Program-made: the position numbers and the translations under genes | Part shown: positions 44,313 through 62,727 of the stretch, piece after piece | Layout: each line of letters opens with the position of its first letter | Numbering within the stretch: the first letter of the stretch is position 1 | The notes under the pieces: model-generated | Databases searched by the model: none | The model's input: only the letters and a program-made list of their open reading frames with translations | What the model was told of the DNA's origin: nothing | Source: Pseudoalteromonas nigrifaciens | Lineage (GTDB): Bacteria; Pseudomonadota; Gammaproteobacteria; Enterobacterales; Alteromonadaceae | Assembly: GCF_002221505.1 (NCBI RefSeq) | Contig: NZ_CP011038.1 | Location: forward strand, 9,732-73,731 | DNA length: 64,000 nucleotides | Reading direction: 5' to 3'

Positions 44313-46015
44313 CCCCAGAAATAATAGCTGGCTTGATTGAAAGCATCACATTCAATCAGCTTATTTCGAAACAGCAAGTCGATGAAAGAACCTTTGACTT
44401 TGAACTACAAGGGCGATCCATTAAATGGAACGTCCGCCTGTACTTCTACCTAACATTCCCATTTAGCTTACCTCTTGCGCAAATCCTCAATGAAGAATAC
44501 ATAGGCAAAATGCCACATGTGAATTCGAAAGGAACTTTATGTGTTGAAGAGGGAGATTCGATACTAGTTGATTATCATTCACCAAGTGAGATTATCGAAA
44601 CGTTCTTATGCCAAACTTTAAAAACTCTAGAACGCTCCTCTTTGCGGGTATTTAAAGGTGAATTGTATGATGAACTAGAAGGCTTTATACATGGCGCAGA
44701 TACCATTAACTCCTTCTACAGAGCAGGTAGCTCGGTAGAAAAGTTAGTTCTACGTATAGCACCATCAAGCAACCTATTAGCTCCTTCCGACATAAATCCT
44801 ATAGCTTTAGCCAAAAGCACAAGCGATATACCTTGCGGGTTCAGCAACACCCAAGCACTAAATAAACACCAATTAGTGAATATCGTTCACATTCCCCTAA
44901 GTGCTCCAGTTGTTCCGTCTACAACAAGCGAATCAGCGTCCCGTTTCATTTCAGAGTTAAAACAGCAGATATCAGAAGAAAACTCAAAAATACTTATAAA
45001 GCTGTTGGGACAAAATTCTAAGAAACAACGCCAATTTTTTGTTTTGGTAAGTATGCCAAGAAGCTCTAGAGAGAGAAGTGAGTTTATCTGTCAGTTCAAA
45101 GCTAAAGCACCAGCGCTACACCCAATTCTCACTGATAGTACAGATTGGCAACTGAAGTTTTTCCTTTTGAATAGGCATAACAAAGAATACCTACTCGAAA
45201 GAGGCGGAGCCAATTTAAGCATAAACAACAAAACAGTAGCAGTGGTAGGGTGTGGCTCTGTAGGTAGTGAAATTGCTATGTTAATAGCCAAATCAGGTGT
45301 AGGGGCTATTAAACTGATCGATGACGATTTACTTGATGCAGACAATATCTATAGGCATAGCCTTGGTGGTCGCTACTTAAACTTCAGTCCTTCTGTCAAG
45401 GATAGAAAAGTGCGAAAGATATCTAAGGTGAGAGCATTAGCAAAAGAAATTAGGGTAAATATTCCCCATATTCACGTTGAAGCTTGCCAGTATTCACTTT
45501 CAGCTCACAACGTAAAAAGCGTAATGAAAGGGGTAGATATTGTTATTGTAGCTATTGGAAATCCATCCATCAGTCTATTACTCAATCGCAGCTTGAAAGA
45601 GCATCAATTCAACAATGTTATTTATTGCTGGAATGAGCCCGATGGTTACGGTGGGCACTCTGTTGCTCTAAATTTAGATCAAGTTTGTCTTGAGTGTGTT
45701 TTATACAAAAAAAGTAGTCCGAGCACTTCTATAAATTTAGTTGAGTTCGGACAAGCTATATCCAAAAACTTAACAGGTTGCGCGGGTGTTTTTACACCAT
45801 TCTCTTACTTAGATTCAACTAAAACCGCCTCAGCAGCAGCTCAGCAAGCTATTACTTTTTTAACTTCGGGTAAAATGGAACCAAAAGTAACATCATGGAA
45901 AGGTATTGATAAAGGCACCTTACAAACAACTAATAGATTTAAAAGTATGGCATTGATGGAAGAAATAAGTTTATCAAAAAACGATGAGTGTATATGTTGT
46001 GACAGTAATAACTGA
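44309..46015 (+). CDS. cap2: CBASS Cap2, E1-E2 ubiquitin-transfer-like enzyme
   Basis: Cap2 activates the CD-NTase C-terminus and conjugates it, priming the synthase. The N-terminal E2-like domain carries Cys78 in HVNSKGTLCVEEGDS; the C-terminal ThiF/E1 adenylation domain has the ATP motif VAVVGCGSVGSEIAMLIAKS at about 310-329 and LIDDDLLDADNIYRHSLG. A second Cys in NLTGCAGVFTPFSY (~489) is the candidate E1 thioester residue. The 568 residues agree with Cap2 (~600). It is translationally coupled to the synthase (ATGA) and overlaps cap3 by 32 bp. Confidence 0.92.
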   Translation: MTPEIIAGLIESITFNQLISKQQVDERTFDFELQGRSIKWNVRLYFYLTFPFSLPLAQILNEEYIGKMPHVNSKGTLCVEEGDSILVDYHSPSEIIETFLCQTLKTLERSSLRVFKGELYDELEGFIHGADTINSFYRAGSSVEKLVLRIAPSSNLLAPSDINPIALAKSTSDIPCGFSNTQALNKHQLVNIVHIPLSAPVVPSTTSESASRFISELKQQISEENSKILIKLLGQNSKKQRQFFVLVSMPRSSRERSEFICQFKAKAPALHPILTDSTDWQLKFFLLNRHNKEYLLERGGANLSINNKTVAVVGCGSVGSEIAMLIAKSGVGAIKLIDDDLLDADNIYRHSLGGRYLNFSPSVKDRKVRKISKVRALAKEIRVNIPHIHVEACQYSLSAHNVKSVMKGVDIVIVAIGNPSISLLLNRSLKEHQFNNVIYCWNEPDGYGGHSVALNLDQVCLECVLYKKSSPSTSINLVEFGQAISKNLTGCAGVFTPFSYLDSTKTASAAAQQAITFLTSGKMEPKVTSWKGIDKGTLQTTNRFKSMALMEEISLSKNDECICCDSNN

Positions 46016-46511
46016 GAATTGGTTAATTGAGTCAGATGAATATGGGAATATAGTAATTGACTCAGAAGTAATTAATACCCTGATTAGTTACAGGCAACTA
46101 GGTAAGCATGATTGTGAGGCAGGAGGAGCACTTATGGGCTGTCTACGGGGAAACAATGAAATTGAGGTAAATGACTTAACGTTACCTCAACCAAGTGATA
46201 AAAGAACTAGGTACTCATTTTTTCGCTCGAATGCTCATAACAAAATTTTAAATGGAAAATGGAAAGCTAGTAATGGGGAGGCGTACCTAGTTGGCCTTTG
46301 GCATACACACCCTGAACCAACGCCTGAGTACTCTAATGAGGATAAGAAAGATTGGCATAAAGTCTTAAAACAAGGTCAATATGAAGGCCAGTCGTTAATT
46401 TTTATTATCGTTGGGCACAAAGACATTCGACTCTGGATAAGCAACAACAAAAATTATAAAATAACACTTCTAGGAGAGTATTCTCTTAAAAATAGTGTTC
46501 ATAAAGGGTAG
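45984..46511 (+). CDS. cap3: CBASS Cap3, JAB/JAMM isopeptidase
   Basis: Cap3 reverses Cap2 conjugation. The JAMM zinc site is complete: Glu45 in EAGGALMG, His107 and His109 in LWHTHPEP, Ser117 and Asp120 in YSNEDK. It has 175 residues, normal for the family. The start lies inside the end of cap2; a GTG 15 bp later is an alternative. The set synthase-Cap2-Cap3 defines type II CBASS. Confidence 0.92.
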   Translation: MSVYVVTVITENWLIESDEYGNIVIDSEVINTLISYRQLGKHDCEAGGALMGCLRGNNEIEVNDLTLPQPSDKRTRYSFFRSNAHNKILNGKWKASNGEAYLVGLWHTHPEPTPEYSNEDKKDWHKVLKQGQYEGQSLIFIIVGHKDIRLWISNNKNYKITLLGEYSLKNSVHKG

Positions 46512-46526
46512 TGGCAGAATGATTAT

Positions 46527-47597
46527 ATGAAATATTATTTCAATAAAGTTTTTAATTGGTATTTTAAACCAAAGACTTTAGAAAACCGACTTTGGAAGTT
46601 AGCTCTGCTTCTTCTATCAACAGGAATCTGTGGTGGGCTATATAGTGCAATTAATGTGACTTGGAAGTACTCTGACACACAGAGTATAAGTACAGGGTAT
46701 TCTACGCAAGATTCAGTAACCGCCATGATTACATACTCAGCTTTTTTAATAGGTATTATATCAGCTTTTCTGGCATCTTATTTAGGTTTTAAACGTGAGC
46801 GACGAAATCCAAATATATTCATTGAGCACATAGGCCTTAGATATCCCAAAAATCAAAGTTTAACCGAAGCAGCAAAAAAGAAAACAGGGCTAGGAAGTAG
46901 TCTATACATAGACATATCAAATTATTATAATCAGGGGCTATTAGTTTCAAATAAACAGGCTTTAGACTATTCCCTTGCTTGTTTCAAAAACACGTTCTCG
47001 AATTTGATGCGAAATGCAGATACAACCAATGTCACATTGCACTATGGTGGTACACCATCTGTTCCTATTGGTTTCGTACTTGGACACTCTATAGGTAATA
47101 CTTCTAAAGTTTCTTTATGGGATTTTGATCGCGATAAATCAGAGTGGTATGCCCTTGAAGACACCCCATCAGACTTGAATGTTCCAATTATAAATTGGGA
47201 GGATTATAAGAAAACAGAAGATGTTTGTTTACTAATGGGAATTTCTTTTGAAGTTTCTCATCAACAAGTTGGTAGTTTATTAAATGGAAGAGGTATTGTA
47301 TCCGTAAGTATGCCTGAAGTTAAGTATGACAGTATGTCTAGCCTTGATAAAATCGAGGGGTTTCAGCAGAAGTTTAGAGAGATTTTGAAAACATTTAATA
47401 CTGATGGAGTTAAGCGAGTTCATATATTTTGTGCCGCGCAGTCATCATTTAATTTCGCAATGGGACGACAAGTTGAGCGCAACCATCCAGAATGCATAGT
47501 TTATGAATACGTCAATAACTCAGATCAAACTACTCAATATCCCTGGGGCGTTTTATTTAACGTTCAAGGACAAGAACCTTCTATTATCGAAACATAG
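46527..47597 (+). CDS. CBASS effector, two-TM SAVED protein (Cap14-like)
   Basis: Two membrane helices at about 23-43 (WKLALLLLSTGICGGLYSA) and 66-88 (MITYSAFLIGIISAFLASYL) are followed by a SAVED sensor domain ending in VHIFCAAQSSFNFAMGRQVE with CIVYEY, the conserved SAVED core. SAVED binds cyclic nucleotides made by the synthase; TM-SAVED effectors are thought to damage the inner membrane when they bind ligand. The 356 residues fit a 2TM-SAVED protein. It is 15 bp after cap3, the last gene of the operon. Confidence 0.86.
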   Translation: MKYYFNKVFNWYFKPKTLENRLWKLALLLLSTGICGGLYSAINVTWKYSDTQSISTGYSTQDSVTAMITYSAFLIGIISAFLASYLGFKRERRNPNIFIEHIGLRYPKNQSLTEAAKKKTGLGSSLYIDISNYYNQGLLVSNKQALDYSLACFKNTFSNLMRNADTTNVTLHYGGTPSVPIGFVLGHSIGNTSKVSLWDFDRDKSEWYALEDTPSDLNVPIINWEDYKKTEDVCLLMGISFEVSHQQVGSLLNGRGIVSVSMPEVKYDSMSSLDKIEGFQQKFREILKTFNTDGVKRVHIFCAAQSSFNFAMGRQVERNHPECIVYEYVNNSDQTTQYPWGVLFNVQGQEPSIIET

Positions 47598-47932: not shown

Positions 47933-50821
47933 TTAAAACCCTGCGATAAACGTATCAACAAAGTGTTTAAATTTATCCGTTATTACAGGCAGCATTTTTC
48001 TGCGCTGTAAAAGGCTGGGTTTGGTTTCTAGTACATCAGCAAAGTCATCCCTTAATGGCATTTCGTCACTTAGCTCATAACGCGTTACTAGCTTTTCTAA
48101 GCGTTCTTGGTTTAGCTTTTGCTCGTGGGCAAACTTCTCAAGCTCTAGGCGCTTTTCTTTCTCCCAATAAAGCTCAAACTCTTCATCAACGTCAGCACTG
48201 GCAGGTATACCTTGTAAGTGCTCATCCATAAACTTATCTATAAGTGCTTTTTTACTTAATAAGGTTGGGTCGGTGGCTATCAGGTTTGCTATTACTTGAC
48301 GTTTACGGGCTTTTTCGTCGCCGCTTTCTTCGCCGTGTAACTCTCGTAATAACTGCAAAATATAGGTTACATTTACTATATCACTGTGTAGTAGCTCTAG
48401 TTCAAAATCAACGTCATCTAAAACCGATACTTTCTCTTTACTTGAGTTCTCACGTAGCTGCCTGCCAAGGTCGGCATACTTACTCGTATAATCCTGAAAC
48501 TCTTGCTCGCCCATCGCGGTAGAGTCCATATCAAAGTCAGCAAAGTTGCTTAACATGTTCTTTAAGCGCATAAGCTCACGAAACTGCCTCACAAACAACG
48601 CCTGAGCTTCTTCATCAGGTAAAGTATCAACTGAGTCAACGGTAGGCGTAATTGCTATTAGCGCACCATAGGCGTCGTTAAAATCGGCTAGCAGCTCATT
48701 ATACGAAGGGGTTTCTATATATTCTTTAGGCTGCTTGTTTGAAAACAGTGTAAAAGCAATGTCAGCAGCTTTTTTAAGGTTTCTAAAACACACTATATTA
48801 CCGTGCGATTTAGTTTCACCCAATAATCGGTTGGTGCGCGAGAAGGCCTGCACCAAACCATGATATTTAAGGTTTTTATCAACGTACAACGTATTGAGTT
48901 TTGGGGCATCAAAGCCTGTTAAAAACATATTCACCACCAGCAATATATCAATCTCTTTGGCTTTAACACGCTTAGATATATTTTTGTAGTAGTCATCAAA
49001 TAACTTGCCATCTTTAGTGGAGTAGCTTGTACCAAACATAGCATTGTAGTCGTTAATGAATGAGTCTAACTTATCGCGGCTATGTAGCTTAACGGCTTGC
49101 CCTTCATTTAAATACTTAACAGAGGTTTCTTTAATCCTTGGTGCATCACTATTACCTAGTTCGTATTCTTCCTCTTCATTAGCCTCATAGCTAAATATGG
49201 TGGCAATTTTAAGATTATGTTTTCCCTGTGCCTTTTTCGCTGCAAATAGCTCATAGTATTGAATAAGCTCAGCCACACTTGAAACACAAAACATAGCGTT
49301 AAACTCACGACTATGCGTTTTACGATTATGCTGGGAAATAATGTAATCGGTTATTTTATCTAAGCGCGCAGGAGAGGTTAAAAGCTCTTTGGTGTCGATG
49401 TCTTCAACTTCAATGTCTAGGTTGTTGTTAGAGCCATCTTTGTATTGGTAACGCCCAACATACTCAATAGCAAACTTAAGCACGTTAGCGTCGCGTATCG
49501 CATCCACAATTACATACGGGTGTAGGCATTCACCAAACAAATCTTTAGTGGTGCGCTTAACTGAATTTTTAGCAACGGCATTGTCGGCAAATATAGGCGT
49601 ACCCGTAAAACCAAACAACTGCGCGTTATTAAAAAATTCGGTAATGTTTTTATGCGTATCGCCAAATTGACTGCGGTGGCACTCGTCAAATATAAACACA
49701 ATGCGCTTATCCTGCAGGCTTTGCATTTCTTTTAAGTAGCGCTGTTTAGTCACCACGTTATTAAGCTTTTGTAGTGTAGTTACCACCAGCTTAGTATTAC
49801 GGTTTTGGTTAACTTTTCTGCCTTTCATAGGCTTATCTAACAGCTGGTGGAACAACATACTTGTGTTGTCAGTGCTGTCTACAGAGCCCTTTACAAACGC
49901 ATTAAACTCAAGCGCTGTTTGGTAGTCTAGGTCTTTACGGTCAACTACAAACACAACTTTATCAACCTCACTCAGAGAGGTCATAATCTGTGCGGCTTTA
50001 AACGAGGTTAATGTTTTACCTGAGCCCGTTGTATGCCAAATATAGCCATTATCAGTTGTGGTTTTAACTTGCTCTACAATCGCCTCAACTGCATAAAACT
50101 GGTACGGCCTAAGCACCATTAAGTACTTACCTGTTTCATTAAGCACAATGTACTTAGTGAGCATATGCGTTAGGTGGGAAGGCGTTAAAAACGCTTCGGC
50201 AAAGTCATGCAACTGGCTTATTTTATTGTTTTCGCTATCAGTCCAGTCAAAGGTTTGCTTAGCCGACATTTCACTGTTGTTAGAAAAGTACTGGCTATTA
50301 ACTCCATTCGACATAACAAACAGCTGCACATAGTTAAACAAACCATGGTTGGCATGAAACGAATGCTTTTGATAACGCTTAATTTGGTTAAACGCTTCTT
50401 TTAGTTCAATACCACGGCGCTTTAATTCTACTTGTACCAGCGGAAAACCATTCACTAATAGCGTTACATCGTATCGGTTAGTGTACGTGCCCTTTATCGT
50501 TATTTGCTGAGCTACCTGAAAGCTGTTTTGCTGCGGATCATCGAACAACAAGGTTAAGTGCATGCTGTCGCCATCATCAAGTGCTACATCAAGCTGGTCG
50601 CGCAGTATTTTGGCTTTAGCAAATATATTACCTTTACCAAGCTTACCGAGTATTTGTGTAAACTCAGTATCACTCAGCTTGCAGTTATTTACTTTTTCTA
50701 GCTGGTGTTTAAGGTTAGCTTCAAGAGCGGCGTTATCCTTTAAAACTACGCGCGTAAAACCTTGCTCGCTAAGTTGTGCAATTAAGTCATCTTCTAATTG
50801 TTGTTCACTTTGGTAAGTCAT
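47933..50821 (-). CDS. hsdR: Type I restriction enzyme R subunit
   Basis: HsdR supplies ATP-driven translocation and DNA cleavage to the HsdR2M2S complex. The N-terminal PD-(D/E)XK nuclease shows Asp118 in NRYDVTLL and the Glu132-Lys134 pair in VQVELKRRG. The SF2 motor has Walker A TTGSGKT at 264-270 and the DECH box at 379-382, with FGFTGTPIF after it and QAFSRTNR as motif VI. A helical C-terminal region ends KHFVDTFIAGF. Its 962 residues match R subunits. It is last in the operon, 53 bp after the AlbA_2/ATPase gene. Confidence 0.95.
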   Translation of the reverse strand: MTYQSEQQLEDDLIAQLSEQGFTRVVLKDNAALEANLKHQLEKVNNCKLSDTEFTQILGKLGKGNIFAKAKILRDQLDVALDDGDSMHLTLLFDDPQQNSFQVAQQITIKGTYTNRYDVTLLVNGFPLVQVELKRRGIELKEAFNQIKRYQKHSFHANHGLFNYVQLFVMSNGVNSQYFSNNSEMSAKQTFDWTDSENNKISQLHDFAEAFLTPSHLTHMLTKYIVLNETGKYLMVLRPYQFYAVEAIVEQVKTTTDNGYIWHTTGSGKTLTSFKAAQIMTSLSEVDKVVFVVDRKDLDYQTALEFNAFVKGSVDSTDNTSMLFHQLLDKPMKGRKVNQNRNTKLVVTTLQKLNNVVTKQRYLKEMQSLQDKRIVFIFDECHRSQFGDTHKNITEFFNNAQLFGFTGTPIFADNAVAKNSVKRTTKDLFGECLHPYVIVDAIRDANVLKFAIEYVGRYQYKDGSNNNLDIEVEDIDTKELLTSPARLDKITDYIISQHNRKTHSREFNAMFCVSSVAELIQYYELFAAKKAQGKHNLKIATIFSYEANEEEEYELGNSDAPRIKETSVKYLNEGQAVKLHSRDKLDSFINDYNAMFGTSYSTKDGKLFDDYYKNISKRVKAKEIDILLVVNMFLTGFDAPKLNTLYVDKNLKYHGLVQAFSRTNRLLGETKSHGNIVCFRNLKKAADIAFTLFSNKQPKEYIETPSYNELLADFNDAYGALIAITPTVDSVDTLPDEEAQALFVRQFRELMRLKNMLSNFADFDMDSTAMGEQEFQDYTSKYADLGRQLRENSSKEKVSVLDDVDFELELLHSDIVNVTYILQLLRELHGEESGDEKARKRQVIANLIATDPTLLSKKALIDKFMDEHLQGIPASADVDEEFELYWEKEKRLELEKFAHEQKLNQERLEKLVTRYELSDEMPLRDDFADVLETKPSLLQRRKMLPVITDKFKHFVDTFIAGF

Positions 50822-50874: not shown

Positions 50875-52860
50875 CTAATCTTTGTGTAACTTATAACCCT
50901 GTTCTGGGTGGTTCGGTATTGTTGGATAGGCCAAAAATAATACCTGCTCTTTAACCATCTCACGTAAGTAATTCTTTCTCAATGTATCTGTATTCATGTT
51001 AAGCAATTGCGCTATATCGCTAAGCCTTAAGCAATTAGGAGCCGACTTAGTACATAAATCAATTATCGCTTTTTGTACATCAGGCTTTTGTTTACGTCCT
51101 GAATTTTGGGCAATAGGCGATGCTATTTCTTTGAGTTCAAGCCAAAAGTTAGAAGCACTTAAATCGAACTCCGGCACTGGCGGATTGAGCTCCGGCACTA
51201 ACTCCGGCACTGGCGGGTTAAGCTCCGGCATTGGCTCTGTTAAGTCCGGCACTTCATTAATTTTTTTACTACCAATCAAGGGCAACGCTGCCTGACTAGG
51301 TGATAATACAAAGCTAATGTTCCTACCAGCCTCATTGTCTGGCGTTGGCACTTCTATCCCTTTTAAATGATATATCTTGCCTCGGTGCTGGCCTGCCGAC
51401 TCCAAGTACCCTGCATTAACTAACTGACTTAACGCAAGTGTCACTTCTCTCGTATGCTCTGAAGTGAGCGAACAAATACGCTCGTGGTTAAACCATGACT
51501 CAGTAATAGCGGTCATTAAAATGGTGCGTTTTAGCTCGCTTAGTTTGTTATAACCTTCACCATACGTTTCAATTAGGCGTTGGTGTAACTCTGGCGATAC
51601 CATGTTTACCATACGCAACTCTAATAAGGTTTGGTTTAACTCGTCTTTTTCGTACAAATGTGGGGGCTGCCAGTTTTGCGCTTTACAATTACTGTATATT
51701 TTAGGAATACCCGAGCCTGCTTTTTCACTCAAACCAATATTTAAAAACATTTGATGAATAGCGGGATTACGGCACTGGCTATTACCGCCTGCTTTAGCTT
51801 CATGTACAGGCACTCGCATAAGCCCTGCATTTCTAAAGCCGATAAAGTCAGGGTGTTTTTCAATTAAAATATTACTTTCGGTACTAAAGTCTGCATGTGC
51901 GAGTGTATTAACAAGTGCTTCACGAATAGCCTCATGCGCTGGGGTTGTATCTTGCCGTTGCCCGCCATCGGTTAGGTTAAAGCCTACTTTTAAATCTACC
52001 GTGAGCTTACGGTAAACCTTACGATAAAAGTCAAAAGCATTTCCCGACCAAGAACCATCGGTATAAATTCGGTCTATCCAGCGGTGTGTACTGTCGTCTT
52101 TTTCTTGATAATCGAGTGCAAAACTTGGTAGTGCGTCTTGAATCGCATCCCACTTACCAAACATTACCAGGCCTGCAAGGGTTAAGCCTGCCTTGCCTGT
52201 TGCGCGGTCTTTTTGCCAGCCACGTATTGAACGCAAAAACTCTTGGTCGCTTAATTCTAAAAAAGGATGTTGTGGTTTGGCGTCAATAAACATTTGCCTG
52301 TAAATACGCAAGCTTTCGGGGTCTATATCGTCTAAGGTAAAGTGCTCTAAAATGCGGTTATCACGCACTTCCTCTTGCTCTGCCAGCATTTTATTTACTG
52401 CCGGTGGCAAACACTTTTGATCGGCCTCGTAACGGCGCTGATAGGTCCCATTAAGTGGGTTTGCATTCATAAATACAGGGCGGCTTTGCCGCGGAGCGCG
52501 CGGCACAGTAATCGCAATAACCGACTGGCCTTCAAGTGTTTCAATCCGTACGTCGCTTTCGCTGAGTAAATTAACACTCACTTTATTTGGGTTGTTAACC
52601 GTATCCCAAATATTCTTAATTAGCGGCGCGGGGTTTGTTATACCCTCAACCGTAAACGTGCCTTTTTTTTCTTTAATGCCCAATAAAATTAAGCCACCAC
52701 GGGTATTGGCAAACGCGCTATAGGTTTCCCACATATCGTTAGGCACTGCACCATGGCCATCGCGGCCACTCGCCTGCTTACACTCAACCTCTACGCTTTC
52801 TTGCAAAGTTTGAATATCAATAATATTCGCTATTGGGTTGTCGTTAATTTTATTAGTCAT
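50875..52860 (-). CDS. AlbA_2 (Schlafen-like) / ATP-binding regulator-like protein
   Basis: This 661-residue protein has an N-terminal AlbA_2 domain (ESVEVECKQASGRDGHGA, YSAFANTRGGLILLGIKE) and a C-terminal HATPase_c_4-type region (IREALVNTLAHADFSTESNI, NIGLSEKAGSGIPKIY). Winged-helix segments follow near 450-500 and at the end (IAQLLNMNTDTLRKNYL). Between them, at about 560-580, is a Pro-Glu repeat (PELNPPVPELVPELNPPVPE). Such proteins are called RNA-binding or transcriptional-regulator-like, and many lie inside type I RM operons. It starts 6 bp after hsdS. It may regulate the operon or be a defence accessory. Confidence 0.82.
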   Translation of the reverse strand: MTNKINDNPIANIIDIQTLQESVEVECKQASGRDGHGAVPNDMWETYSAFANTRGGLILLGIKEKKGTFTVEGITNPAPLIKNIWDTVNNPNKVSVNLLSESDVRIETLEGQSVIAITVPRAPRQSRPVFMNANPLNGTYQRRYEADQKCLPPAVNKMLAEQEEVRDNRILEHFTLDDIDPESLRIYRQMFIDAKPQHPFLELSDQEFLRSIRGWQKDRATGKAGLTLAGLVMFGKWDAIQDALPSFALDYQEKDDSTHRWIDRIYTDGSWSGNAFDFYRKVYRKLTVDLKVGFNLTDGGQRQDTTPAHEAIREALVNTLAHADFSTESNILIEKHPDFIGFRNAGLMRVPVHEAKAGGNSQCRNPAIHQMFLNIGLSEKAGSGIPKIYSNCKAQNWQPPHLYEKDELNQTLLELRMVNMVSPELHQRLIETYGEGYNKLSELKRTILMTAITESWFNHERICSLTSEHTREVTLALSQLVNAGYLESAGQHRGKIYHLKGIEVPTPDNEAGRNISFVLSPSQAALPLIGSKKINEVPDLTEPMPELNPPVPELVPELNPPVPEFDLSASNFWLELKEIASPIAQNSGRKQKPDVQKAIIDLCTKSAPNCLRLSDIAQLLNMNTDTLRKNYLREMVKEQVLFLAYPTIPNHPEQGYKLHKD

Positions 52861-52866
52861 TATTTC

Positions 52867-54090
52867 TCACACAAACATTTGCTGTAGTAAGCCTTTTTTA
52901 AATAGCTTAGTTTGTTCAATTTGATCGTTAACAGCGTTTATTTTTTTATCGAGCGATTGTAAGGATTGCGCTATTTTTTGCTGCTCAGCTTCGCAAGGTA
53001 TTTCAACTTTTAAGCTTTTTAAATGTGTTGAATATAAATGAATTACTGAACTACCTTGAGATAATGAAGCTATTTCTCGCTTCTTGGCCGAGTTAAAATA
53101 ATAAGATAAAAAAACTCCATTTAACGGAGTCCGTATAACAGTTAGATCACCGCTATAAGCTACACCACTTAACTTTACACATGCTGCGGTTGCAATGTCC
53201 CATTGAGTTTCACCTGATGATGGGACTATAACGTCATTTGCTTTACTAAAAAGTAAACTCTTTATCGGTAAACTTGTTGCAGAAACAACTGATTCTATAA
53301 CCTCACCGTAAGTAGTATACAGTTCACCATAACGAATACAGGGAGTTATACCATCAATTGATATATCAGCTTTCGATATACTCTTACCTTTTGTAAAAGT
53401 AGCTATATCACCTAACAACTTTTCTTCCCACTCAGGAAAAGCGTTTCCATCATCGTCTTTAAAACGAATTTGTTGGCTAAAAATTTGTTGCATTACGCCT
53501 TTTTTATAGTCTTTTAATAAGCGGTGCTTTTCAGTTAGCTGGCTGATTTTAGTATCAACTGAAGTGAGGAAGTTAGCTATTTTTTGTTGTTCTAAGCTCG
53601 ACTTAGGAAAGTGAGCTTTGTATGTTCGTAAATAATCTGTAGTAACACGTTTCTGTCCTGCTGAACCTTGCATATTCTGTTCACCAACAAAACGAAACTT
53701 AGGTGTACTCAATAAATAATGTATAAATGATGGTGAGTTACCTTCTTTTGCTCTTAGAACATGGAATTCAGTGCTACCGAAACCGACACCATTAACGAGA
53801 CCTTGCAATAAAGCCCCTTTACCATTTTCAAAGCAAGGTGTAATTTTAGCAAAAATCGCATCCCCATCTTGAAAACCTGTAAAACCTTTGCAATAGCTCT
53901 CGTACAGAACAGTTTCAGAGTAAGAAAGCTTAGCCTCTTCTGTTACTGCATTCATAGGTATAAATGAAACCTTACCATCAACTGGTTCAATAGGTTTTGG
54001 TGGATTTATATAGCAGAAGTGAGATAGTTTATTTTCACTCCAGTCACTTTGAAAACATTGAAACCTAAGTTTAGGTATTACTGCGCTCAT
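52867..54090 (-). CDS. hsdS: Type I restriction enzyme S (specificity) subunit
   Basis: HsdS chooses the bipartite DNA target. Two target-recognition domains lie at about 1-170 and 215-370, each followed by a conserved coiled-coil spacer: EQQKIANFLTSVDTKISQLT and EQQKIAQSLQSLDKKINAVN, with the paired tails GVMQQIFSQQIRF and GLLQQMFV. Its 407 residues are typical. It overlaps hsdM by 4 bp (ATGA). The recognition sequence cannot be read from the protein. Confidence 0.95.
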   Translation of the reverse strand: MSAVIPKLRFQCFQSDWSENKLSHFCYINPPKPIEPVDGKVSFIPMNAVTEEAKLSYSETVLYESYCKGFTGFQDGDAIFAKITPCFENGKGALLQGLVNGVGFGSTEFHVLRAKEGNSPSFIHYLLSTPKFRFVGEQNMQGSAGQKRVTTDYLRTYKAHFPKSSLEQQKIANFLTSVDTKISQLTEKHRLLKDYKKGVMQQIFSQQIRFKDDDGNAFPEWEEKLLGDIATFTKGKSISKADISIDGITPCIRYGELYTTYGEVIESVVSATSLPIKSLLFSKANDVIVPSSGETQWDIATAACVKLSGVAYSGDLTVIRTPLNGVFLSYYFNSAKKREIASLSQGSSVIHLYSTHLKSLKVEIPCEAEQQKIAQSLQSLDKKINAVNDQIEQTKLFKKGLLQQMFV

Positions 54091-55658
54091 TTTACTATCC
54101 CAAATGGAATTTCAACCCCTAGCTCATCACAAAAATCAGCAATTATTTTATCCGTTTCAAGCATCGCTTTATCATTTGCCACCAGCTGCTGCGCAACCTC
54201 TCTCAAATCAACAAGCGCTTCATCTTCAAAGGTATCTACGTAACGCGGAATATTAAGGTTGTAATCGTTCTCTGCTAAATCGGTTTGTGTAGCTGCGAAC
54301 GCATATTTATCAATAAAATCGCGTTTGCTTACGGCATCTAAAATGCGTTGTAAGTCTTCCTCGCTCATTACGTTGTTGTTAGTGCCTTTTTCAAAGTGAT
54401 TACTGGCATCTATAAACAATACATTATCGTCAGCTTTACGGTGTTTTTTTAGCACCAACACACAAGTAGGAATAGACGTGCCAAAAAAGATATTAGCAGG
54501 TAAGCCTATTACCATATCAAGGTAGTTTTTTTCTTTAATAAGGTGTTTACGTATATGCCCTTCGGCAGCACCACGAAACAACACGCCATGCGGTAATACC
54601 ACCGCCATTGTGCCGTTGTCGGCAAGCTGGTGGATCATGTGTTGTACAAAAGCAAAGTCGGCTTTGCCTTTTGGTGCCAGCTTGCCGTAGTCGGCAAAGC
54701 GCTCGTTATTCATGTGTAGCGGGTTGGCAGACCAGTCCGCCGAAAATGGCGGATTAGCTACCACAGCACTAAAGCGTTGCTCAAAGTGTGCGGGAACTTC
54801 TAACGTGTCGTCGTTTTGAATGTCGAACCTTGTGTAATGCACGTCGTGCATAATCATGTTCATACGGGCTAGGTTGTAAGTACTTGGGTTTTGCTCTTGT
54901 CCGTAAAACTTTAAATCGGGGTTATTAGCTTCTTTTGCAACACGTAACAACAATGAGCCAGAGCCACAGGTAGGATCGTAAACCGATTTAATGTGCGGGT
55001 TATTTAAAGTTACTAATTTTGCTAATAACTTAGATACCATTTGCGGAGTATAAAACTCACCTGCTTTTTTACCCGCGCCACTAGCAAACATACCAATAAG
55101 GTATTCGTAAGCATCGCCAAGTATGTCTATTTCGCTACTTTCTAGGTGAAAGTCGATGTTATCAAGGTGCTCTAATACTTTGGCTATTAACTTATTACGC
55201 GCATCCGGTGTTTTACCTAGTTTGTTAGAGGTTAGGTCTAGGTCATCAAACAAACCGTTAAAGTCATCAGCGCTGTCTACGCCCATAGTACTTTGCTCAA
55301 TATGGTTAAGCACGTTGGTTACATCATCAAGTATAAACTTATCGTTAGCACCGCGTTCAGCAAGTACATGAAAAAGCTCTGCAGGTTTTAAAAAGTAGCC
55401 AAGCTTATCAAGTGTCTCTTCTTTTACAGCTTCAAGGTACTCTTGGCCCTCTGCTGTTGTTTCGTCAATTTTAGCAAATACAATACCGTCTTCACTCAGT
55501 AGCTGATCGGCATAAGTGTTGAGCTTGTCAGAAAGATACTTATAAAAAATAAGCCCAAGTATGTAATCGCGAAAGTCATCAGCCGACATATTGCCACGTA
55601 AGCTGTTAGCGATATTCCAAAGCTGCTTTTTTAATTCTTGTTGGTGTTGTTGAACCAT
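54087..55658 (-). CDS. hsdM: Type I restriction enzyme M (N6-adenine methyltransferase) subunit
   Basis: HsdM methylates adenine in the HsdS target with S-adenosylmethionine. The N-terminal helical HsdM_N domain (LWNIANSLRGNMSADDFRDY) precedes the catalytic domain with the SAM motif DPTCGSG at 228-234 and the catalytic NPPF at 302-305. Its 523 residues are usual. It is immediately upstream of hsdS, with translational coupling, and 46 bp after the fusion gene at 55705-58056. Confidence 0.96.
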   Translation of the reverse strand: MVQQHQQELKKQLWNIANSLRGNMSADDFRDYILGLIFYKYLSDKLNTYADQLLSEDGIVFAKIDETTAEGQEYLEAVKEETLDKLGYFLKPAELFHVLAERGANDKFILDDVTNVLNHIEQSTMGVDSADDFNGLFDDLDLTSNKLGKTPDARNKLIAKVLEHLDNIDFHLESSEIDILGDAYEYLIGMFASGAGKKAGEFYTPQMVSKLLAKLVTLNNPHIKSVYDPTCGSGSLLLRVAKEANNPDLKFYGQEQNPSTYNLARMNMIMHDVHYTRFDIQNDDTLEVPAHFEQRFSAVVANPPFSADWSANPLHMNNERFADYGKLAPKGKADFAFVQHMIHQLADNGTMAVVLPHGVLFRGAAEGHIRKHLIKEKNYLDMVIGLPANIFFGTSIPTCVLVLKKHRKADDNVLFIDASNHFEKGTNNNVMSEEDLQRILDAVSKRDFIDKYAFAATQTDLAENDYNLNIPRYVDTFEDEALVDLREVAQQLVANDKAMLETDKIIADFCDELGVEIPFGIVK

Positions 55659-55704
55659 TAATCTAATCTCTTTATTTTAATAGGCGACTTATGAGCCGAT
55701 TTAA

Positions 55705-58056
55705 TCACTTGTTTTTAAAATGCATTTCTATATATTTTAGTAGCTCGTAACCATATAAAGCTTCTGATTCTGATGAGCGTCTTATATAAAAATCTTGATA
55801 CTTATTATTTTCACCTTTCATGAAAACAGGCTCAGGAGAAGTAATACAATCTACGATAACAATATTTTTATCATCTATGATAACTGAAGATAGGCGAACC
55901 AATTTGCTAATTGAATCACCTAGCAAATTTGTCACTTTGTTTTCTAAATCTTTTAGGTACTTTTCAATTTTCTGCAAATTTAAAGCTGACATTTCTCTAT
56001 CTATTCCAACCAACTTGCCACTGTCACTTACACCCAACAATAATGTGCCGCCATCAGTATTGAGAAATGAAGCTATATTTTTAATTACCTTAGTCTGCTC
56101 TTCTTCGCTACGTTCAACTTTTCCAGAAGGGTTGTAAACATCTTGCTCTTTGAGAAAGAAAAACTGTTTAAACTCAATCTCTTTAGTTTCATTAATCTCT
56201 ACTAGAATTTTAACACGCTCAATATCGCTAATATCAGATAAATCAAAAATAATTCTATTTGTTTGATTTGCTATTTCATGAGCTGAGGATGGGTTAGTGA
56301 TTAGATCACTCTTGTAACGAGTTAGAGTAGATTCTGCTGCTTCTAATTTATTTGCTAACTCAAGTACTTTTAGTTGCTCTGATTTCTCCGGCACATAAAT
56401 ATTTAGTTTATGTAAATCTTTAATAGACAACATAGCAAAAGTACCTGAAGAAAGGTGTTCCAGTGATAACTTGCCTAACTCTGAATCTAAATACAACTTC
56501 GCATAACGGCAAAGTACAATATTCTCATTAAATTGAACTTCAATATAACGCTTTTGCTGTTGGGGTGTTAGTTCGTCTAAATTTGTCAGGACACGATTAC
56601 GACTTTGCATTGAAGAAATAAATACAGAATTAGCTTTTGTTTCAGATCCAGCTTTCATCCGACGCATAGACAAAACGGCTCGTTGATCTAACTCTGAAGA
56701 GCTATCAAATGAATACTCTTTAAACGTTTTATGATTCTGCTGTAATCTATCAATTATTTTTTTATTCGGTGAGTTATCAACATACTCTTTAACAGCCAAA
56801 GAGTAATTTTTAGCTTTTATATCATCTAAACTAACAACCTTAGAGTAGGTCCCTATATCTTGAAATTCATTGTAAGTTTGAATGATATTGTTGATGTGTT
56901 CACGTGTTAACTCATTAGCCCTTCTCGACTGAAGATAGTCGTACTTGGCATCAATAAATAACGTTTTTAGCTTCTCACTTTTATTTTTGTTAATTATTAA
57001 AATACAAAGGTCAACTGAACTTGATTGCAATATTTTTGATGGTAAGGCAATAACAGATTCGATTAAGTCTTCTGAAATAAGAGCGCTTCTTATATTCAAC
57101 TCTGCACGGTAAGCCGCCAACATATGGGATGTAACAAGCGTTACTAATTTACCATCGGGAGCTAAACTAGCCAATTGATGTAACAACCAAGCATAGTTAG
57201 CATTACTTTTAGGGGGCATTCCAAAAGTAGTCCGTTTTCCTCCTAAATAACTCCACTCTCCATGATTGAAAAACTTCTGATTAATTGGAGGAAAGGAAAC
57301 TATCTTGTTAAACGTTTTAAGATCGTATGAGTTTGATTCTTTAAACTGCGGATTTAGTAATGCGTCCCCTAGCCTTACATTAACACTAAGGTTATTACTC
57401 AAAATCATGAGGACTCTAGCAAACCAAAACTCATCTAGCTGATTTGTCTCACCGTAAATAAAACCTTGATACTGACCCAGATTACCATCAAAGCTTTTGG
57501 GACTAATTAACATCTTACCGATGCAAAATGAGGGATCATATACATCCTCATTTTTCTTTAAATCTAAGAGCAACAACATTAACTCAGCAACTTGTACGGG
57601 CAAATCAGGACCAAAGTTAATCTCTCTAGGACTGAGCCATTCTTGTACAAAGATAGCTATTTGTGTATCACATTCACTGATTACTCTGTAATATAAATAA
57701 TGAATAGACATTAGTAACTCAACTAGGTAATAGCTATCTAAATGCTGAAATAAAGAGATAGGAAATATACCGTTTAAAAAGTCATTCTCAGCCTCAATTT
57801 CTACGAGATTACTGATTAGCCGCTCTTTCAAACTGTATCTATCTGAGTTTACTAAGTCATTAAAGTGGCAGTGTTCAGGTACAAAGTAAGGAAAGCGATA
57901 ATCTAAAATTTCTTTTTCCACTATTTCCTGATGATAGGAGATATGATGGTATGTAATTAATGAAATTATTAACTTGTATCGTTCGATCCTTGGAAGCGGA
58001 GATTCTCTTAATATATCATTAGCTTTATTGAGCACTTTCACTACTTCAGTTTTCAT
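55705..58056 (-). CDS. Degenerate N6-methylase / HsdS-like / AlbA_2 fusion protein
   Basis: This 783-residue protein reads as an HsdM-like methyltransferase fused to a specificity-like segment and a Schlafen AlbA_2 domain. The methylase part (about 145-400) keeps the order of motifs but loses the key residues: motif I reads DPSFCIGKM at ~174 instead of DPxxGSG, and the catalytic NPPF is FPPI at 255-258. Residues ~520-600 (IKDLHKLNIYVPEKSEQLKV) resemble the end of a target-recognition domain. The C-terminus (ETKEIEFKQFFFL, IASFLNTDGGTLLLGVSDSG, FYIRRSSES) is AlbA_2. Catalysis of methyl transfer seems unlikely. It sits between the Mrr-like nuclease gene (26 bp) and hsdM. Confidence 0.75.
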   Translation of the reverse strand: MKTEVVKVLNKANDILRESPLPRIERYKLIISLITYHHISYHQEIVEKEILDYRFPYFVPEHCHFNDLVNSDRYSLKERLISNLVEIEAENDFLNGIFPISLFQHLDSYYLVELLMSIHYLYYRVISECDTQIAIFVQEWLSPREINFGPDLPVQVAELMLLLLDLKKNEDVYDPSFCIGKMLISPKSFDGNLGQYQGFIYGETNQLDEFWFARVLMILSNNLSVNVRLGDALLNPQFKESNSYDLKTFNKIVSFPPINQKFFNHGEWSYLGGKRTTFGMPPKSNANYAWLLHQLASLAPDGKLVTLVTSHMLAAYRAELNIRSALISEDLIESVIALPSKILQSSSVDLCILIINKNKSEKLKTLFIDAKYDYLQSRRANELTREHINNIIQTYNEFQDIGTYSKVVSLDDIKAKNYSLAVKEYVDNSPNKKIIDRLQQNHKTFKEYSFDSSSELDQRAVLSMRRMKAGSETKANSVFISSMQSRNRVLTNLDELTPQQQKRYIEVQFNENIVLCRYAKLYLDSELGKLSLEHLSSGTFAMLSIKDLHKLNIYVPEKSEQLKVLELANKLEAAESTLTRYKSDLITNPSSAHEIANQTNRIIFDLSDISDIERVKILVEINETKEIEFKQFFFLKEQDVYNPSGKVERSEEEQTKVIKNIASFLNTDGGTLLLGVSDSGKLVGIDREMSALNLQKIEKYLKDLENKVTNLLGDSISKLVRLSSVIIDDKNIVIVDCITSPEPVFMKGENNKYQDFYIRRSSESEALYGYELLKYIEMHFKNK

Positions 58057-58082
58057 TTAACATCCCTATAGTGAATGAATTA

Positions 58083-59018
58083 CTATCCAACTGTACTCAC
58101 AAGCCATTCAATTAATCCTGCATTCACTGATAAATCAGCAAGCTTTTCAGCGTCCCACACCTGAATTGAATTATTCTTATCCATTGTATTAATATGGTCG
58201 CTTAGCTTTTTATCTGGTGTGTGGGTCACATAAAAAGCTTTATCATAACCCTCTATATTTAATCGCTCTTCATACTCTTTATATAAACTTAGGTTACTCT
58301 GTGATTTCACCTGAACAATGGCACGTTCTCCTGTAACTGGCGCCAAGAGTTCTATATCTAGCGTTTTTATTGTGTTACCCGCAGAGCCAACCCTTGACCA
58401 CCCCGATGAACGAAATATTAAATCGACAAATACTTCAAAATCTTGCGGTGACAACAATTGGATGATCTTTTCGAGTGAGAGCTTAAGTGATACTAAATTC
58501 GTCTCTACATTTTTAACATCAGGGTGTTGAGTATTGTTGATTTTATTAAGCAGGTACTCTTTTTCTTTAACATCACAAATTGTACCTCTGAAGCCTTGTA
58601 CTTTAGTCAACTTGCCACTTAGAGTTTGTATGAAAAGTGAATTGTTCTGACTATCTACACTGCGCCAACCATCAACTGTTTTACGTGATTTTGTTCTACT
58701 GTTCTCATCAAGCAGAACTTCTTCTTCAGCAAAGCAGTACCACAATTTACAGTCGTAAAATGTAATCCACATTGTTGTTTTAGGCTCGGTGTAAAACCTT
58801 TTAATTTGATTTCGATGGCTTGTTGTCGAAGCTTTGTTTGTATTGTACTCCAGAGCTACAAACTCACTCACTTTATCCCAGTTATTACTTAAACATAACT
58901 CATGAGGAATTTGCCTGTAATCTAACTTTATTGTACCTTCTTTTTCAATACACTCACTCTCGTAATCACCTTTTGAACCAAGCTTTATAAATAATGCAGT
59001 TGCAGCTTTAATCGCCAT
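58083..59018 (-). CDS. Mrr-like restriction endonuclease-fold protein
   Basis: The C-terminal part (residues ~190-310) is an Mrr_cat-type PD-(D/E)XK nuclease: LSPQDFEVFVDLIFRSSGW, then TLDIELLAPVTG with the catalytic Asp, and AIVQVKSQSN with the QxK pair. The N-terminal ~180 residues carry a domain I do not recognise (MWITFYDCKLWYCFAEEE). It has 311 residues. It probably cuts DNA, perhaps modified DNA as Mrr does. It is 26 bp upstream of the methylase/AlbA_2 fusion and likely works with it. Confidence 0.78.
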   Translation of the reverse strand: MAIKAATALFIKLGSKGDYESECIEKEGTIKLDYRQIPHELCLSNNWDKVSEFVALEYNTNKASTTSHRNQIKRFYTEPKTTMWITFYDCKLWYCFAEEEVLLDENSRTKSRKTVDGWRSVDSQNNSLFIQTLSGKLTKVQGFRGTICDVKEKEYLLNKINNTQHPDVKNVETNLVSLKLSLEKIIQLLSPQDFEVFVDLIFRSSGWSRVGSAGNTIKTLDIELLAPVTGERAIVQVKSQSNLSLYKEYEERLNIEGYDKAFYVTHTPDKKLSDHINTMDKNNSIQVWDAEKLADLSVNAGLIEWLVSTVG

Positions 59019-59041
59019 TTTAAAATCCTTTTTTATTAAGT

Positions 59042-59979
59042 TTAATCTTCTATAAAGTAGTCGCTATCAAGTGCTTTTACTTCAAATGCCTGTTTAGTAC
59101 TAACGCCTACGTTATGAGTAAGCATTAGCTCTGTTAGCTGTTTACCATCCACCAGCACAATACGCTTATCAATTAAGCCAACATATTCGAGTGCGTCTTT
59201 ACTAAAGCTGCTGGTGGTGATGAATACCCCTTTTTAGCACGGTGCATATCTAGCGCACCAGCAAAGGCTTGTATATCTGGCCTACCCACTGTTTTATTGG
59301 TGTAGCGCTTAGCCTGTAAATATATCATTTCGAGGCCGAGTTTATCTTCTTTTATTACACCATCAATGACACCGTCTTGAGTATATTACGTAGCTTGCCC
59401 TGCATCTTTACGTGAGCCGCCATAGCCCATAGCTAGCATTAAATCGACTACAAGGTTTTCAAAAAACGCAGGGGAGGCCGAAAGCACAGCCTGTAGTACT
59501 TCATCGCTCAAGTTAGTATTGAGTGTATCTACTGCGGCTTCTATTAGCTCTTCTGGTGTTTTTTGTGAGTTGCTATTTACTAAGCTGGTGGTGTTTTCGT
59601 CTAGTGAGTCGTTAGTATCTTTAGTACGGGTTTTAAAGTCTAAAAACTCAGGGTATTGGCTTAAGTACTGGTTATTGATTTGTTCGCCAGCTTGTATGGC
59701 AGTCAACCCTTTGTGCGTGATTTTGTAAAAGGCTCTTTTAGGCTGCTCTATCAAGCCTGCTTGTACTAAGTATGTTTTAGCCCAACCCAAACGATGGTAA
59801 GCATAAGTTTGCTTTCCACTAGGAATACGCAGTTTAAGCTGCTCTGCCGATAAGCTCAGGCTTTGATAAACGTTTGCTTCAATCTCTTTAAGCTTTACAG
59901 TTTTACCGTTAGCTAAGCATTGCTGTAATGGGGTCATGAATGATTGGTAATCTGGTAAAGACATACTATTCCCTGCCAA
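59042..59979 (-). pseudogene. mrr: Broken mrr-type restriction endonuclease
   Basis: The intact N-terminal frame (59386-59979) encodes the Mrr winged-helix domain (LPDYQSFMTPLQQCLANGKT with VKLKEIE) and the start of the nuclease (FFENLVVDLMLAMGYGGSRK and DAGQAT). A TAA stop then follows, where the family continues with a Gln/Val-type residue. The same frame goes on with YTQDGVIDGVIKEDKLGLEM and IYLQAKRYTNKTVGRPDIQA (catalytic Asp and QAK). One base is missing in the G-run near 59236, after which AKKG should lead to VFITTSSFSKDALEYVGLID. The tail SDYFIED ends at 59042. One nonsense change and one frameshift have inactivated it. Confidence 0.85.
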
Positions 59980-60190
59980 GCCGTATTAGTTAATAACTAA
60001 ACAGCTAATCCTTTTGTTTTATTGGTTGAGATAATATACACATTAAGATTAAGGGGCAAAGATTATGCAATGATCATGTGTCTCATATCAACACAGTTTA
60101 TGTTGAGTAGTAAGAATAACTAAGAACGCACAGTTACAAACGGCTCCTGGTGCGTTTATGACTATATTATCGGAGTTTTCACTGTTTTTC
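59980..60190. other. Start of the origin-side intergenic region
   Basis: No gene seen. It begins the ~2.75 kb mostly non-coding stretch that runs to the initiator gene. Confidence 0.5.
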
Positions 60191-60192
60191 TT

Positions 60193-60632
60193 AAACCGAT
60201 GCACTAAACCTATAGGGTTTTTCGGTCTATTTACCCCAGTTGCTCACAAGTGATTTTTGTATTTTATCTTATGAAATAAGTTGTGATATTAGACTGTTTT
60301 TTATCCATTTGATGTATGTTCTGATGTATCAATTCTTGTTCACCATTGTTAATCACTCAAACCGATGCAGCAAACCTATATACCCTGCTTTAAACCGATG
60401 CAACAAACCTCTAGTTATAAAACAATGGCTTAGGTTTATTTGGTACTTTAAGCTCTGCTTCTCTTAGACTTGAAAGAGGGTTTATCTGGGATTTCTTCGG
60501 AAAACCGATGCAGTAAACCTCTAGTTATAGATCAATGACTTAGGTTGATACCTGCTTTATTCCCCTGTATTTAGACACTTTAAGGGCATTATTCGGTCCC
60601 TACCTGGAGAAAACCGATGCAACCAACTATAG
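60193..60632 (+). repeat. Five AAACCGATGCA repeats (iteron-like)
   Basis: Copies of AAACCGATGCANNAAACCTMTAG occur at 60193-60215, 60359-60380, 60392-60414, 60502-60524 and a diverged one at 60611-60632, all in one orientation. For the third and fourth copies similarity extends about 45 bp, through CTAGTTATA and CTTAGGTT. Spacing is irregular (about 33-166 bp). They differ from the iterons at 62.1-62.7 kb, so they probably bind another protein, perhaps a partition or copy-control factor. Confidence 0.8.
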
Positions 60633-60921: not shown

Positions 60922-61030
60922 AAACCTCTCATCTGCAGAACTTCTATCATTAAATGGGGAAAATACTCTGCCTCTTTACTTAGAATAAACCCCATGGAAC
61001 TTTCCAATCACTTCCCAAATAACTATCTAT

Positions 61031-61290
61031 CTGGGATTGTGATGCATATTTCCACGAAGGCAGCTTATACATAACTATTACAGGGGATTGATAGGGGAAC
61101 TCCCTGTATTTCTGGGATTGTGATGCGTATTTCCACTAAAATAGCTCATACATAGCTATTACAGAGGATTGATAGGAGCATTCCCTTTATTTCTGGGATT
61201 GTAATGCATATTTCCGCAAAAATAGCTCATACATAGCTATTACAGGGATTAATAGGAGCATTTCCTATTTATCTGGGATTGTGACTTGGT
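61031..61290 (+). repeat. Three 80-81 bp tandem repeats plus partial fourth
   Basis: Units start with CTGGGATTGT at 61031, 61112, 61193 and 61273; each contains GATGCATATTTCC-like, CATACATAGCTATTACAG and GATTGATAGGAGCATTCCC segments. They are highly similar but not identical. No reading frame is conserved. Tandem repeats of this size beside an origin could serve partition, incompatibility or fork-related roles; function unknown. Confidence 0.85.
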
Positions 61291-62086: not shown

Positions 62087-62727
62087 GATCGTATATTTGG
62101 TGTTTTGGATCATATATTTGGTGTTTTAGATCATATATTTGGTGTTTAGGATCATATACTTGGTGTTTAGGTTACATATTTTTGGTGTTTAGATTACATA
62201 TTTTTGGTGTTCTTTTTTAGAATAAGGTTCTGACGACATACACTATTTTTATAGTATATGTCTCATTGCTAGCATGCAAAATGATAGATTAAGCTCTTTT
62301 TTAATATATTTAACACAATTCTGAGGTTGAAAGTTTGTAATTGTGTATATGCGTAACATATTTTTGGTGTTGAGAGCTTGTATCTTTGTATGTACGTAAC
62401 ATATTTTTGGTGTTGAGGGATTATATTTTTGTATGTAACATTTTTCTTATCATGGAGATTATATCTTTGCATGTACTATTTTTGTAGGTATGCAACATAT
62501 TTTTGGTGTTAGGGGTTATATCTTTGCATGTACGTAACATATTTTTGGTGTTGAGAGCTTGTATCTTTGTATGTACGTAACATATTCTTGGTGTTTTATT
62601 TATTTGTAGGGCTATATTCGTCGTATTTTATGGGAAGTTATTAAAAATAGGTCTACGTGAGCATATTTTATATGAGCTACATTACATATTTTTGGTGTTA
62701 TTGAGAGCACATACCAAAAATATGTAA
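62087..62727 (+). repeat. Replication iteron array (CATATTTTTGGTGTT)
   Basis: About twelve direct copies of a ~19-21 bp unit with core TTGGTGTT occur. Four GATCRTATAYTTGGTGTT units start near 62087 at about 20-bp spacing, then two TTACATATTTTTGGTGTT units (to ~62211). Further GTAACATATTTTTGGTGTT-like copies lie at 62354, 62397, 62492, 62534, 62577 and 62681, and one inverted copy at about 62711-62727. Another copy lies at about 63847-63865 in front of the initiator. These are typical binding sites for a Rep_3-type initiator. The array lies downstream (3') of the rep gene. Confidence 0.92.

Follow-up and report, generated by a model that had tools for sequence, protein, structure and literature searches.

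The 64,000-nucleotide stretch of Pseudoalteromonas nigrifaciens DNA analysed here (the window; contig NZ_CP011038.1, positions 9,732 to 73,731) holds a type I restriction–modification (R-M) operon in which an unusual gene, labelled M* in the following, lies just upstream of hsdM. As read from its sequence, M* encodes an additional, catalytically degenerate pseudo-HsdM of this operon, which continues into a half-HsdS-like stretch and ends in an AlbA_2 domain of the Schlafen type. Its parts are listed below (SAM, S-adenosylmethionine; aa, amino acids).

55705..58056, minus strand: M*, pseudo-HsdM / half-HsdS / AlbA_2 fusion; ATG start, 783 aa
56752..58056, minus strand: HsdM-like part (residues 1–435)
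57514..57537, minus strand: degenerate SAM loop DPSFCIGK (residues 174–181)
57283..57294, minus strand: FPPI replacing the catalytic NPPF (residues 255–258; aligned to PacII M1 and EcoR124 M)
56197..56751, minus strand: half-HsdS-like target-recognition stretch with long C-terminal helices (approximately residues 436–620)
55759..56190, minus strand: AlbA_2 (Schlafen) domain (residues 623–766; E623, E628, and D678)

The only domains found by Pfam in M* are N6_Mtase (residues 153–431, E 3.7e-55, 187.9 bits vs. a cut-off of 20.4) and SLFN_AlbA_2 (residues 623–766, E 1e-15, 58.7 bits vs. 25.3); an ABC-type ATPase domain is not among them. The motifs of a working HsdM, NPP[FY] and DPxxGxG, are replaced by FPPI and DPSFCIGK, and with 129.3 bits M* stays below the 242.75 bits needed for the curated hsdM equivalog TIGR00497. 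A preliminary description of this DNA, made from the letters and their open reading frames (ORFs), had proposed a degenerate methylase fused to AlbA_2 within a defence operon. This is borne out by the Pfam domains and the two altered motifs, as well as by hsdM, hsdS, and hsdR following on the same strand, and is extended here by the half-HsdS-like stretch, the Schlafen triad, a further AlbA_2 gene flanked by hsdS and hsdR, and a broken mrr upstream.

HsdM_N is not matched by Pfam in M*, yet the predicted model overlays HsdM folds from residue 1 onwards. The top structural match is PacII M1, with comparison rows spanning residues 1–579, and further matches include single-chain DNA methylases with target recognition domains (TRDs) and type IIG/ISP enzymes. 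The TRD-like stretch is matched by PADLOC Specificity_I (residues 473–582, E 1.9e-7), its family profile A2 matches HsdS 1yf2 (6.1e-7), S.BsaXI (2.5e-6), and EcoKI S (3.4e-5), and in the model it is followed by long helices at residues 558–587 and 589–606. An own half-HsdS-like stretch followed by long helices, together with the matches to single-chain and type IIG/ISP enzymes, would suit a protein that binds specific unmethylated non-self DNA via its own TRD and fires AlbA_2 directly, similar in layout to a type IIG enzyme but ending in a Schlafen domain, while the neighbouring HsdM protects the host sites. Since intact HsdS and HsdR are encoded alongside M*, we consider this unlikely.

The three carboxylates of the Schlafen core, E-x4-E and D, which M* shares with the Schlafen RNases SLFN11, SLFN13, and SLFN14, are present as E623, E628, and D678 in an alignment with SLFN11. 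For SLFN13, activity is reported to be lost in the mutants E205A and E210A, with D248 as the residue completing the active site (PMC5862951). A sequence profile of the M* domain reaches SLFN11, Schlafen 8, SLFN14, and SLFN12. Among the 36 AlbA_2-type fusion sequences, 35 have the Schlafen pattern E-x4-E-F-K ... GG-x-L ... G[VI]-x-D; the sole exception (P0012, 433 aa) ends before the domain, and the pattern is thus present in 35 of 35 full-length proteins. From the triad we infer that the AlbA_2 domain of M* may act as an RNase. The full M* model is confident over most of residues 623–766, but the fold-comparison rows reach only to about residue 579 and include no Schlafen chain; a model of the domain alone, built from three sequences, had a pLDDT (predicted local distance difference test) of 36 and was not used.

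The state of the methylase motif was compared between 38 fusion sequences (36 with AlbA_2, one of them truncated, and two with an FRG domain instead, see below) and 108 ordinary HsdM sequences, the latter drawn from the best 120 matches to M* itself and hence not a random sample. In the fusions, motif IV is NPP[FY] in 12, NPPM in one, and has lost the asparagine in 25 (FPPI, FSPI, IPPF, VPPF, HPPF, QPPF, QIPF, QLPF, or TPAF). Ordinary HsdM sequences have NPP[FY] in 107 of 108 cases and NFPF in the remaining one, with the catalytic asparagine lost in none, and their most frequent SAM loop is DPCCGSGG (70 of 108); the motif change in M* is therefore not background variation. When the 13 sequences of the window clade are counted as one lineage, NPP[FY] is retained in 12 of 26 fusion lineages vs. 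107 of 108 HsdM (Fisher p 4e-11, a figure that serves as a guide, as the sequences are related), and the tree of the C-terminal half requires at least six state changes of the catalytic asparagine. A degenerate motif is common to the 12 close homologues of M*, with FPPI in 11 and FSPI in one (P0001), which is 99% identical to M* and may represent the window's own cluster. Methylation to N4-methylcytosine (m4C) was considered as a cause of the motif change and dropped, as the m4C subunits are reported to carry NPPY, not FPPI (PMC9613975).

Homologues retaining NPPF and acting as ordinary methylases had been named in the preliminary description as evidence that would speak against it; the 12 fusions with NPP[FY] answer to this in part, but still carry AlbA_2. 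Their retained motif, along with PacII M1 as the nearest fold, is also what favours M* as a regulatory or modifying M subunit in an M2S complex, where it would tune methylation or restriction (e.g. by leaving one half-site unmethylatable) and use AlbA_2 for nucleic-acid binding or operon control. AlbA_2 occurs also in genes annotated as regulators, which would fit such a role. This explanation is distinctly unlikely, given that the Schlafen triad in the 35 full-length proteins is more constant than the methylase motif and that an unrelated domain replaces AlbA_2 in the same slot of sister operons. Decay without function, i.e. a duplicated methylase hitch-hiking in a mobile defence operon, would account for the broken motifs, for the faster evolution of the HsdM part (75–97% identity in five homologues vs. 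94–98% for AlbA_2), and for the similarly broken mrr two places upstream. Still, the 783-aa frame is intact, AlbA_2 is conserved, and the same degenerate motif recurs in the 12 close homologues, making this a very unlikely explanation.

The genes surrounding M* are the following.

59042..59979, minus strand: broken type IV mrr, with an Mrr_N piece at 59386–59979 and the remainder in other frames
58083..59018, minus strand: Mrr_cat-like 311-aa protein (mrrL), 26 bp upstream of M*
54087..55658, minus strand: hsdM, 523 aa, NPPF intact, 46 bp downstream of M*
52867..54090, minus strand: hsdS, 407 aa
50875..52860, minus strand: second Schlafen gene (AlbA_2 and HATPase_c_4), between hsdS and hsdR
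47933..50821, minus strand: hsdR, 962 aa

On this one strand the order from upstream to downstream is thus broken mrr, mrrL, M*, hsdM, hsdS, the AlbA_2-HATPase gene, and hsdR, with gaps of 26, 46, -4, 6, and 53 bp from mrrL onward. Scans for promoters (16 vs. a mean of 21.4 in shuffles) and terminators (2 vs. 4.4) of the operon were no better than shuffled sequence, and the operon call therefore rests on these gaps and on the conserved gene order. The contig has 73.7 kb and a Rep3 initiator and is therefore probably a plasmid. Repeated DNA near the Rep3 gene (61030–61284 and 62087–62595, seen as overlapping self-like matches to locus L075) likely represents plasmid iterons. Upstream of the operon, at 60190–60630, a recurrent word similar to GGTTT-N-TGCATCGGTTT was noted by eye in several copies, perhaps iterons or operator sites. 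A complete-looking cyclic oligonucleotide-based antiphage signalling system (CBASS) with a DncV-like synthase, a ThiF-type E1, a JAB peptidase, and a 2TM-SAVED effector lies at 43302–47597 on the plus strand.

Searching the genus with the window HsdM gave five loci with this operon (HsdM identity of 89% or more). Two of these (L041 and L042) have the order mrr, mrrL (96%), slot protein, hsdM, hsdS, AlbA_2-HATPase gene, and hsdR. Here the slot protein has 700 aa, in which HsdM_N and N6_Mtase are followed by FRG at the C-terminus (E 5.7e-27 and 1.8e-26), carries VPPF at both loci, and shows neither AlbA_2 nor a specificity domain by Pfam. It is 65–76% identical to its cognate HsdM over residues 1–375 and 45–47% over the next 75. 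Two further loci (L075 and L076) have the same operon without mrrL and without a slot protein, and 39 bp in L075 stand where the window has 55677–59041 (3,365 bp). The mrr gene is intact in L041, L042, L075, and L076, and the window copy is broken. As judged from these gene orders, the position just upstream of hsdM is a slot that is either empty or occupied by a predicted dead HsdM copy with differing C-terminal domains.

Window DNA matches L042 on both flanks of M*, and M* itself has no DNA counterpart there. Directly after the M* stop codon, the window contains ATTAAAATAAAGAGATTA, with which the FRG-form gene of L042 also ends, stop codon included. This sequence, which lies in AT-rich DNA, hints that M* replaced an FRG form. 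Between L041 and L042, the ratio of nonsynonymous to synonymous substitution (dN/dS) is 0.20 for the HsdM part of the FRG form, 0.07 for the FRG part, and 0.02 for the cognate HsdM. The HsdM part is thus under purifying selection and maintained although its catalysis is probably gone, which is a further point against mere decay. As dS is about ten times higher in the FRG part (codons 490–700; 1.12) than in the HsdM part (0.10), the FRG tail may have been exchanged, too. With no Pfam specificity domain in the FRG form, own DNA reading would not be common to the slot, which further weakens the type IIG-like explanation.

The preliminary description had paired M* with an Mrr-like nuclease 26 bp upstream, as sensor and nuclease reading methylated or hemimethylated DNA. 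A 311-aa ORF does lie at this distance, but its Mrr_cat match of 20.9 bits is just under the Pfam cut-off of 21, so that "Mrr-like" is a fair but weak label. Within this operon family mrrL tracks the slot protein (present at three of three loci with one, absent from two of two without), which is consistent with a pair. In contrast, mrrL is absent next to the fusions in L005, L008, and L034 and was not seen on L007 (an 8-kb contig), and L043 and L044 carry mrrL with neither a fusion nor type I genes within 19.5 kb. Nothing found points to the reading of methylated or hemimethylated DNA, and the FRG-form slot protein, in which Pfam detects neither AlbA_2 nor a specificity domain, does not support it either; we regard this pairing as highly improbable.

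The history of the HsdM half appears mosaic. Compared with an HsdM of Vibrio salinus, the fusion P0015 is 79–88% identical over residues 1–375 and 18% in the TRD part, which is nearer to other fusions (59–65% identical to the V. salinus M*). For the HsdM halves of 20 fusions and 14 HsdM sequences, in a tree that left out P0013, P0251, and the window clade, a single fusion clade was rejected (approximately unbiased test, p-AU 1e-76). In addition, P0013, P0252, and P0253 group together at 100/98 in the N-terminal half, a grouping that the C-terminal half rejects (p 1.9e-5). From two trees, including that of the C-terminal half, eight near-copies of the window clade were omitted. The reverse test, constraining the N-terminal half to P0013 with P0242, was not rejected (p 0.06) and P0013 is a long branch; the conflict between the halves therefore rests on the non-monophyly of the HsdM half and the rejection by the C-terminal half. 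These patterns are best explained if fusions acquired or swapped their HsdM half from local hsdM genes on more than one occasion, although some HsdM could in principle descend from fusions and cause the same non-monophyly.

Homologues of the whole architecture comprise P0001–P0011 (83–99% identical), the truncated P0012, P0013–P0015 (31–37%), P0241–P0256 (named sources include Vibrio, Pseudoalteromonas, Psychrobium, and Litoribrevibacter), and the loci L005, L007, L008, and L034. Genomes matched by a profile of the C-terminal half numbered 4 of 295 in the family, 3 of 394 in the order, 9 of 369 in the class, and 2 of 197 in a second family, with many of the matches being short forms or AlbA_2 alone; multi-genome matches to the AlbA_2 part alone were not counted as fusions. 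A single-sequence scan of genome contigs with M* gave no match, and an alignment of the C-terminal half as query gave three loci (one partial). The fusion was absent from the viral contigs and phages searched, and the plasmids searched gave none or one partial match; none of 2,378 records from one further search covered 80% of M*. At five of the seven loci read (the window, L005, L008, L041, and L042), hsdM follows directly downstream of the slot protein, and it is thereby a more regular neighbour than mrrL.

Schlafen domains also occur in other forms in type I operons, namely as HsdR fusions, GmrSD_N fusions, and AlbA_2-HATPase proteins. One HsdR of 1,169 aa with a C-terminal AlbA_2 is encoded in an hsdM-hsdS operon (L035, 9143–12652, minus strand). 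GmrSD_N-AlbA_2 genes of 707 aa are found in L028 (9697–11820, minus), L029 (9241–11364, minus), and L030 (8100–10223, plus), with the domains assigned by Pfam for L028 and L030 and by similarity for L029; in L029 and L030 the gene sits between an HsdR-like gene and hsdM. The AlbA_2-HATPase form was seen in the window operon and in L091. Short relatives of 570–609 aa with a specificity-like part and AlbA_2 were observed in L024 (9255–11084, minus), where the gene adjoins an OLD-like ATPase-TOPRIM gene, L025 (4351–6069, plus), and L026 (1908–3620, minus).

Several other genes near these loci deserve mention. In L034, a HEPN-nucleotidyltransferase gene (7687–8565, minus) lies between hsdR and the M* homologue, and beside the fusion locus in L005 (12354–19276, plus) are genes that by eye resemble Tn7-type tnsABC and tniQ. 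AAA_13 genes (with a P-loop, by eye PrrC/RloC-like) and a RhuM gene were noted in further type I operons within the genus (L084, 4202–6371, minus; L088, 9145–10215, minus). An HsdM-HsdS fusion of 712 aa with NPPY is encoded in L079 (2684–4822, plus).

The reading we favour, at a probability of about 50%, is that M* is a dead HsdM-like decoy with an effector tail, which is kept inactive within the type I complex and triggered once that complex is blocked. The pseudo-HsdM would join or mimic the HsdM-HsdS complex, much as PacII M1M2S combines two unlike M subunits, and its tail would be held silent there. A phage protein attacking HsdM or HsdS (Ocr, ArdA, or another DNA mimic, or a peptide like Stp) might then engage the complex or the decoy, and the tail domain would be released or activated. 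AlbA_2 would cut tRNA or other RNA and stop the infected cell, thereby backing up DNA cleavage as a second line of defence. The sequences themselves show the domains, the state of the motifs, the exchange in the slot, and the conflict between trees; we infer complex formation, trigger, RNase activity, and the abortive outcome. More tentatively, the slot proteins may exemplify a class of "integrated decoys", comparable to the integrated decoy domains of plant immune receptors: inactivated copies of R-M subunits, repeatedly recruited from local hsdM genes and fused to exchangeable effectors (AlbA_2 or FRG), with the R-M enzyme as bait for anti-restriction proteins.

Several observations weigh against the decoy reading. 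With an identity of only 21% to the adjoining HsdM and a TRD-like stretch besides, M* may form a separate complex. The 12 of 38 fusions with NPP[FY] may be working methylases, and deadness is therefore not a family-wide trait; the window clade, a long branch, is itself outside the tree that demonstrates non-monophyly. Bacterial AlbA_2 domains need not be RNases. The architecture is uncommon, with 2 of 108 genomes in the genus (E 1e-60), and a slot protein is missing from another 18 type I loci read in the genus. The FRG form was found in two genomes only, and none of 375 further genomes of the order had an FRG match within a frame of more than 459 aa. Moreover, the fusion in L034 lies approximately 4 kb from hsdMSR and does not adjoin hsdM, and no type I gene was seen on the 8-kb contig L007.

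Among the open-licence papers listed for Schlafen/AlbA_2 with type I R-M, for FRG with type I R-M, and for decoy or inactive HsdM, none appears from its listing to describe the architecture, in agreement with the preliminary description, which knew of no such defence system. Its elements have counterparts. EcoprrI keeps PrrC in check until Stp releases it (PMC2610378, PMC3874165); like M*, PrrC is encoded by an extra gene inside hsdMSR and is a likely RNA-cutting effector for which the type I complex would be silencer and sensor (PMC2610378, PMC3874165, PMC12409349). However, PrrC is an ABC-ATPase with its own anticodon nuclease triad, whereas in the slot proteins the putative effector is the AlbA_2 or FRG domain that ends a dead HsdM copy. 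Ronin, an R-M-like system without R and with the toxin RonA, is proposed to sense anti-restriction proteins via its modification subunits, and thus resembles M* as proposed here in using modification-type subunits as the sensor that releases a toxin (PMC12409349). It is set apart by its description: hsdR (962 aa) is present in the window, and the effector is fused to the pseudo-M rather than encoded by a separate small gene. Unlike in PrrC and Ronin, sensor and effector would be combined in one chain in the M* decoy model. PacII is a type I system in which two unlike M subunits share one S and which Ocr and ArdA bind and inhibit (PMC9613975). The window likewise encodes two unlike M subunits, M* and HsdM, before one hsdS. 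In PacII, however, each of the two M subunits is catalytic (NPPF and NPPY), in contrast to M* with its FPPI, broken SAM loop, TRD-like part, and AlbA_2.

Schlafen genes have also been described as backup effectors beside bacteriophage exclusion (BREX), a DNA-modifying defence (PMC12839542). These BREX-linked proteins combine Schlafen, a histidine-kinase-like ATPase, and a winged helix-turn-helix and are resembled by the window gene at 50875–52860, whereas M* carries the domain on a pseudo-HsdM/HsdS. In the phage anti-restriction-induced system (PARIS; AriA/AriB), an immune protein triggered by an anti-restriction protein leads to tRNA cleavage, comparable to what is proposed for M* (PMC12409349), but PARIS consists of an ATPase and a separate nuclease, and no AriA/AriB family is among the 19 PADLOC matches of M*. 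Thus, the principle that the R-M state controls a toxin is known, and the build, a dead HsdM with an exchangeable tail, seems new.

Since the slot offers matched natural variants (AlbA_2, FRG, or empty) in close relatives, the decoy idea is directly testable. Further candidates could be searched for as HsdM paralogues that adjoin hsdM, have lost the catalytic asparagine, and have gained a C-terminal domain. Type I R-M systems rank with the most frequent phage defences, and a large number of phage-borne proteins counteract them. Were the decoy reading true, restriction itself would become a tripwire, the tail of which could be changed without changing the sensor.

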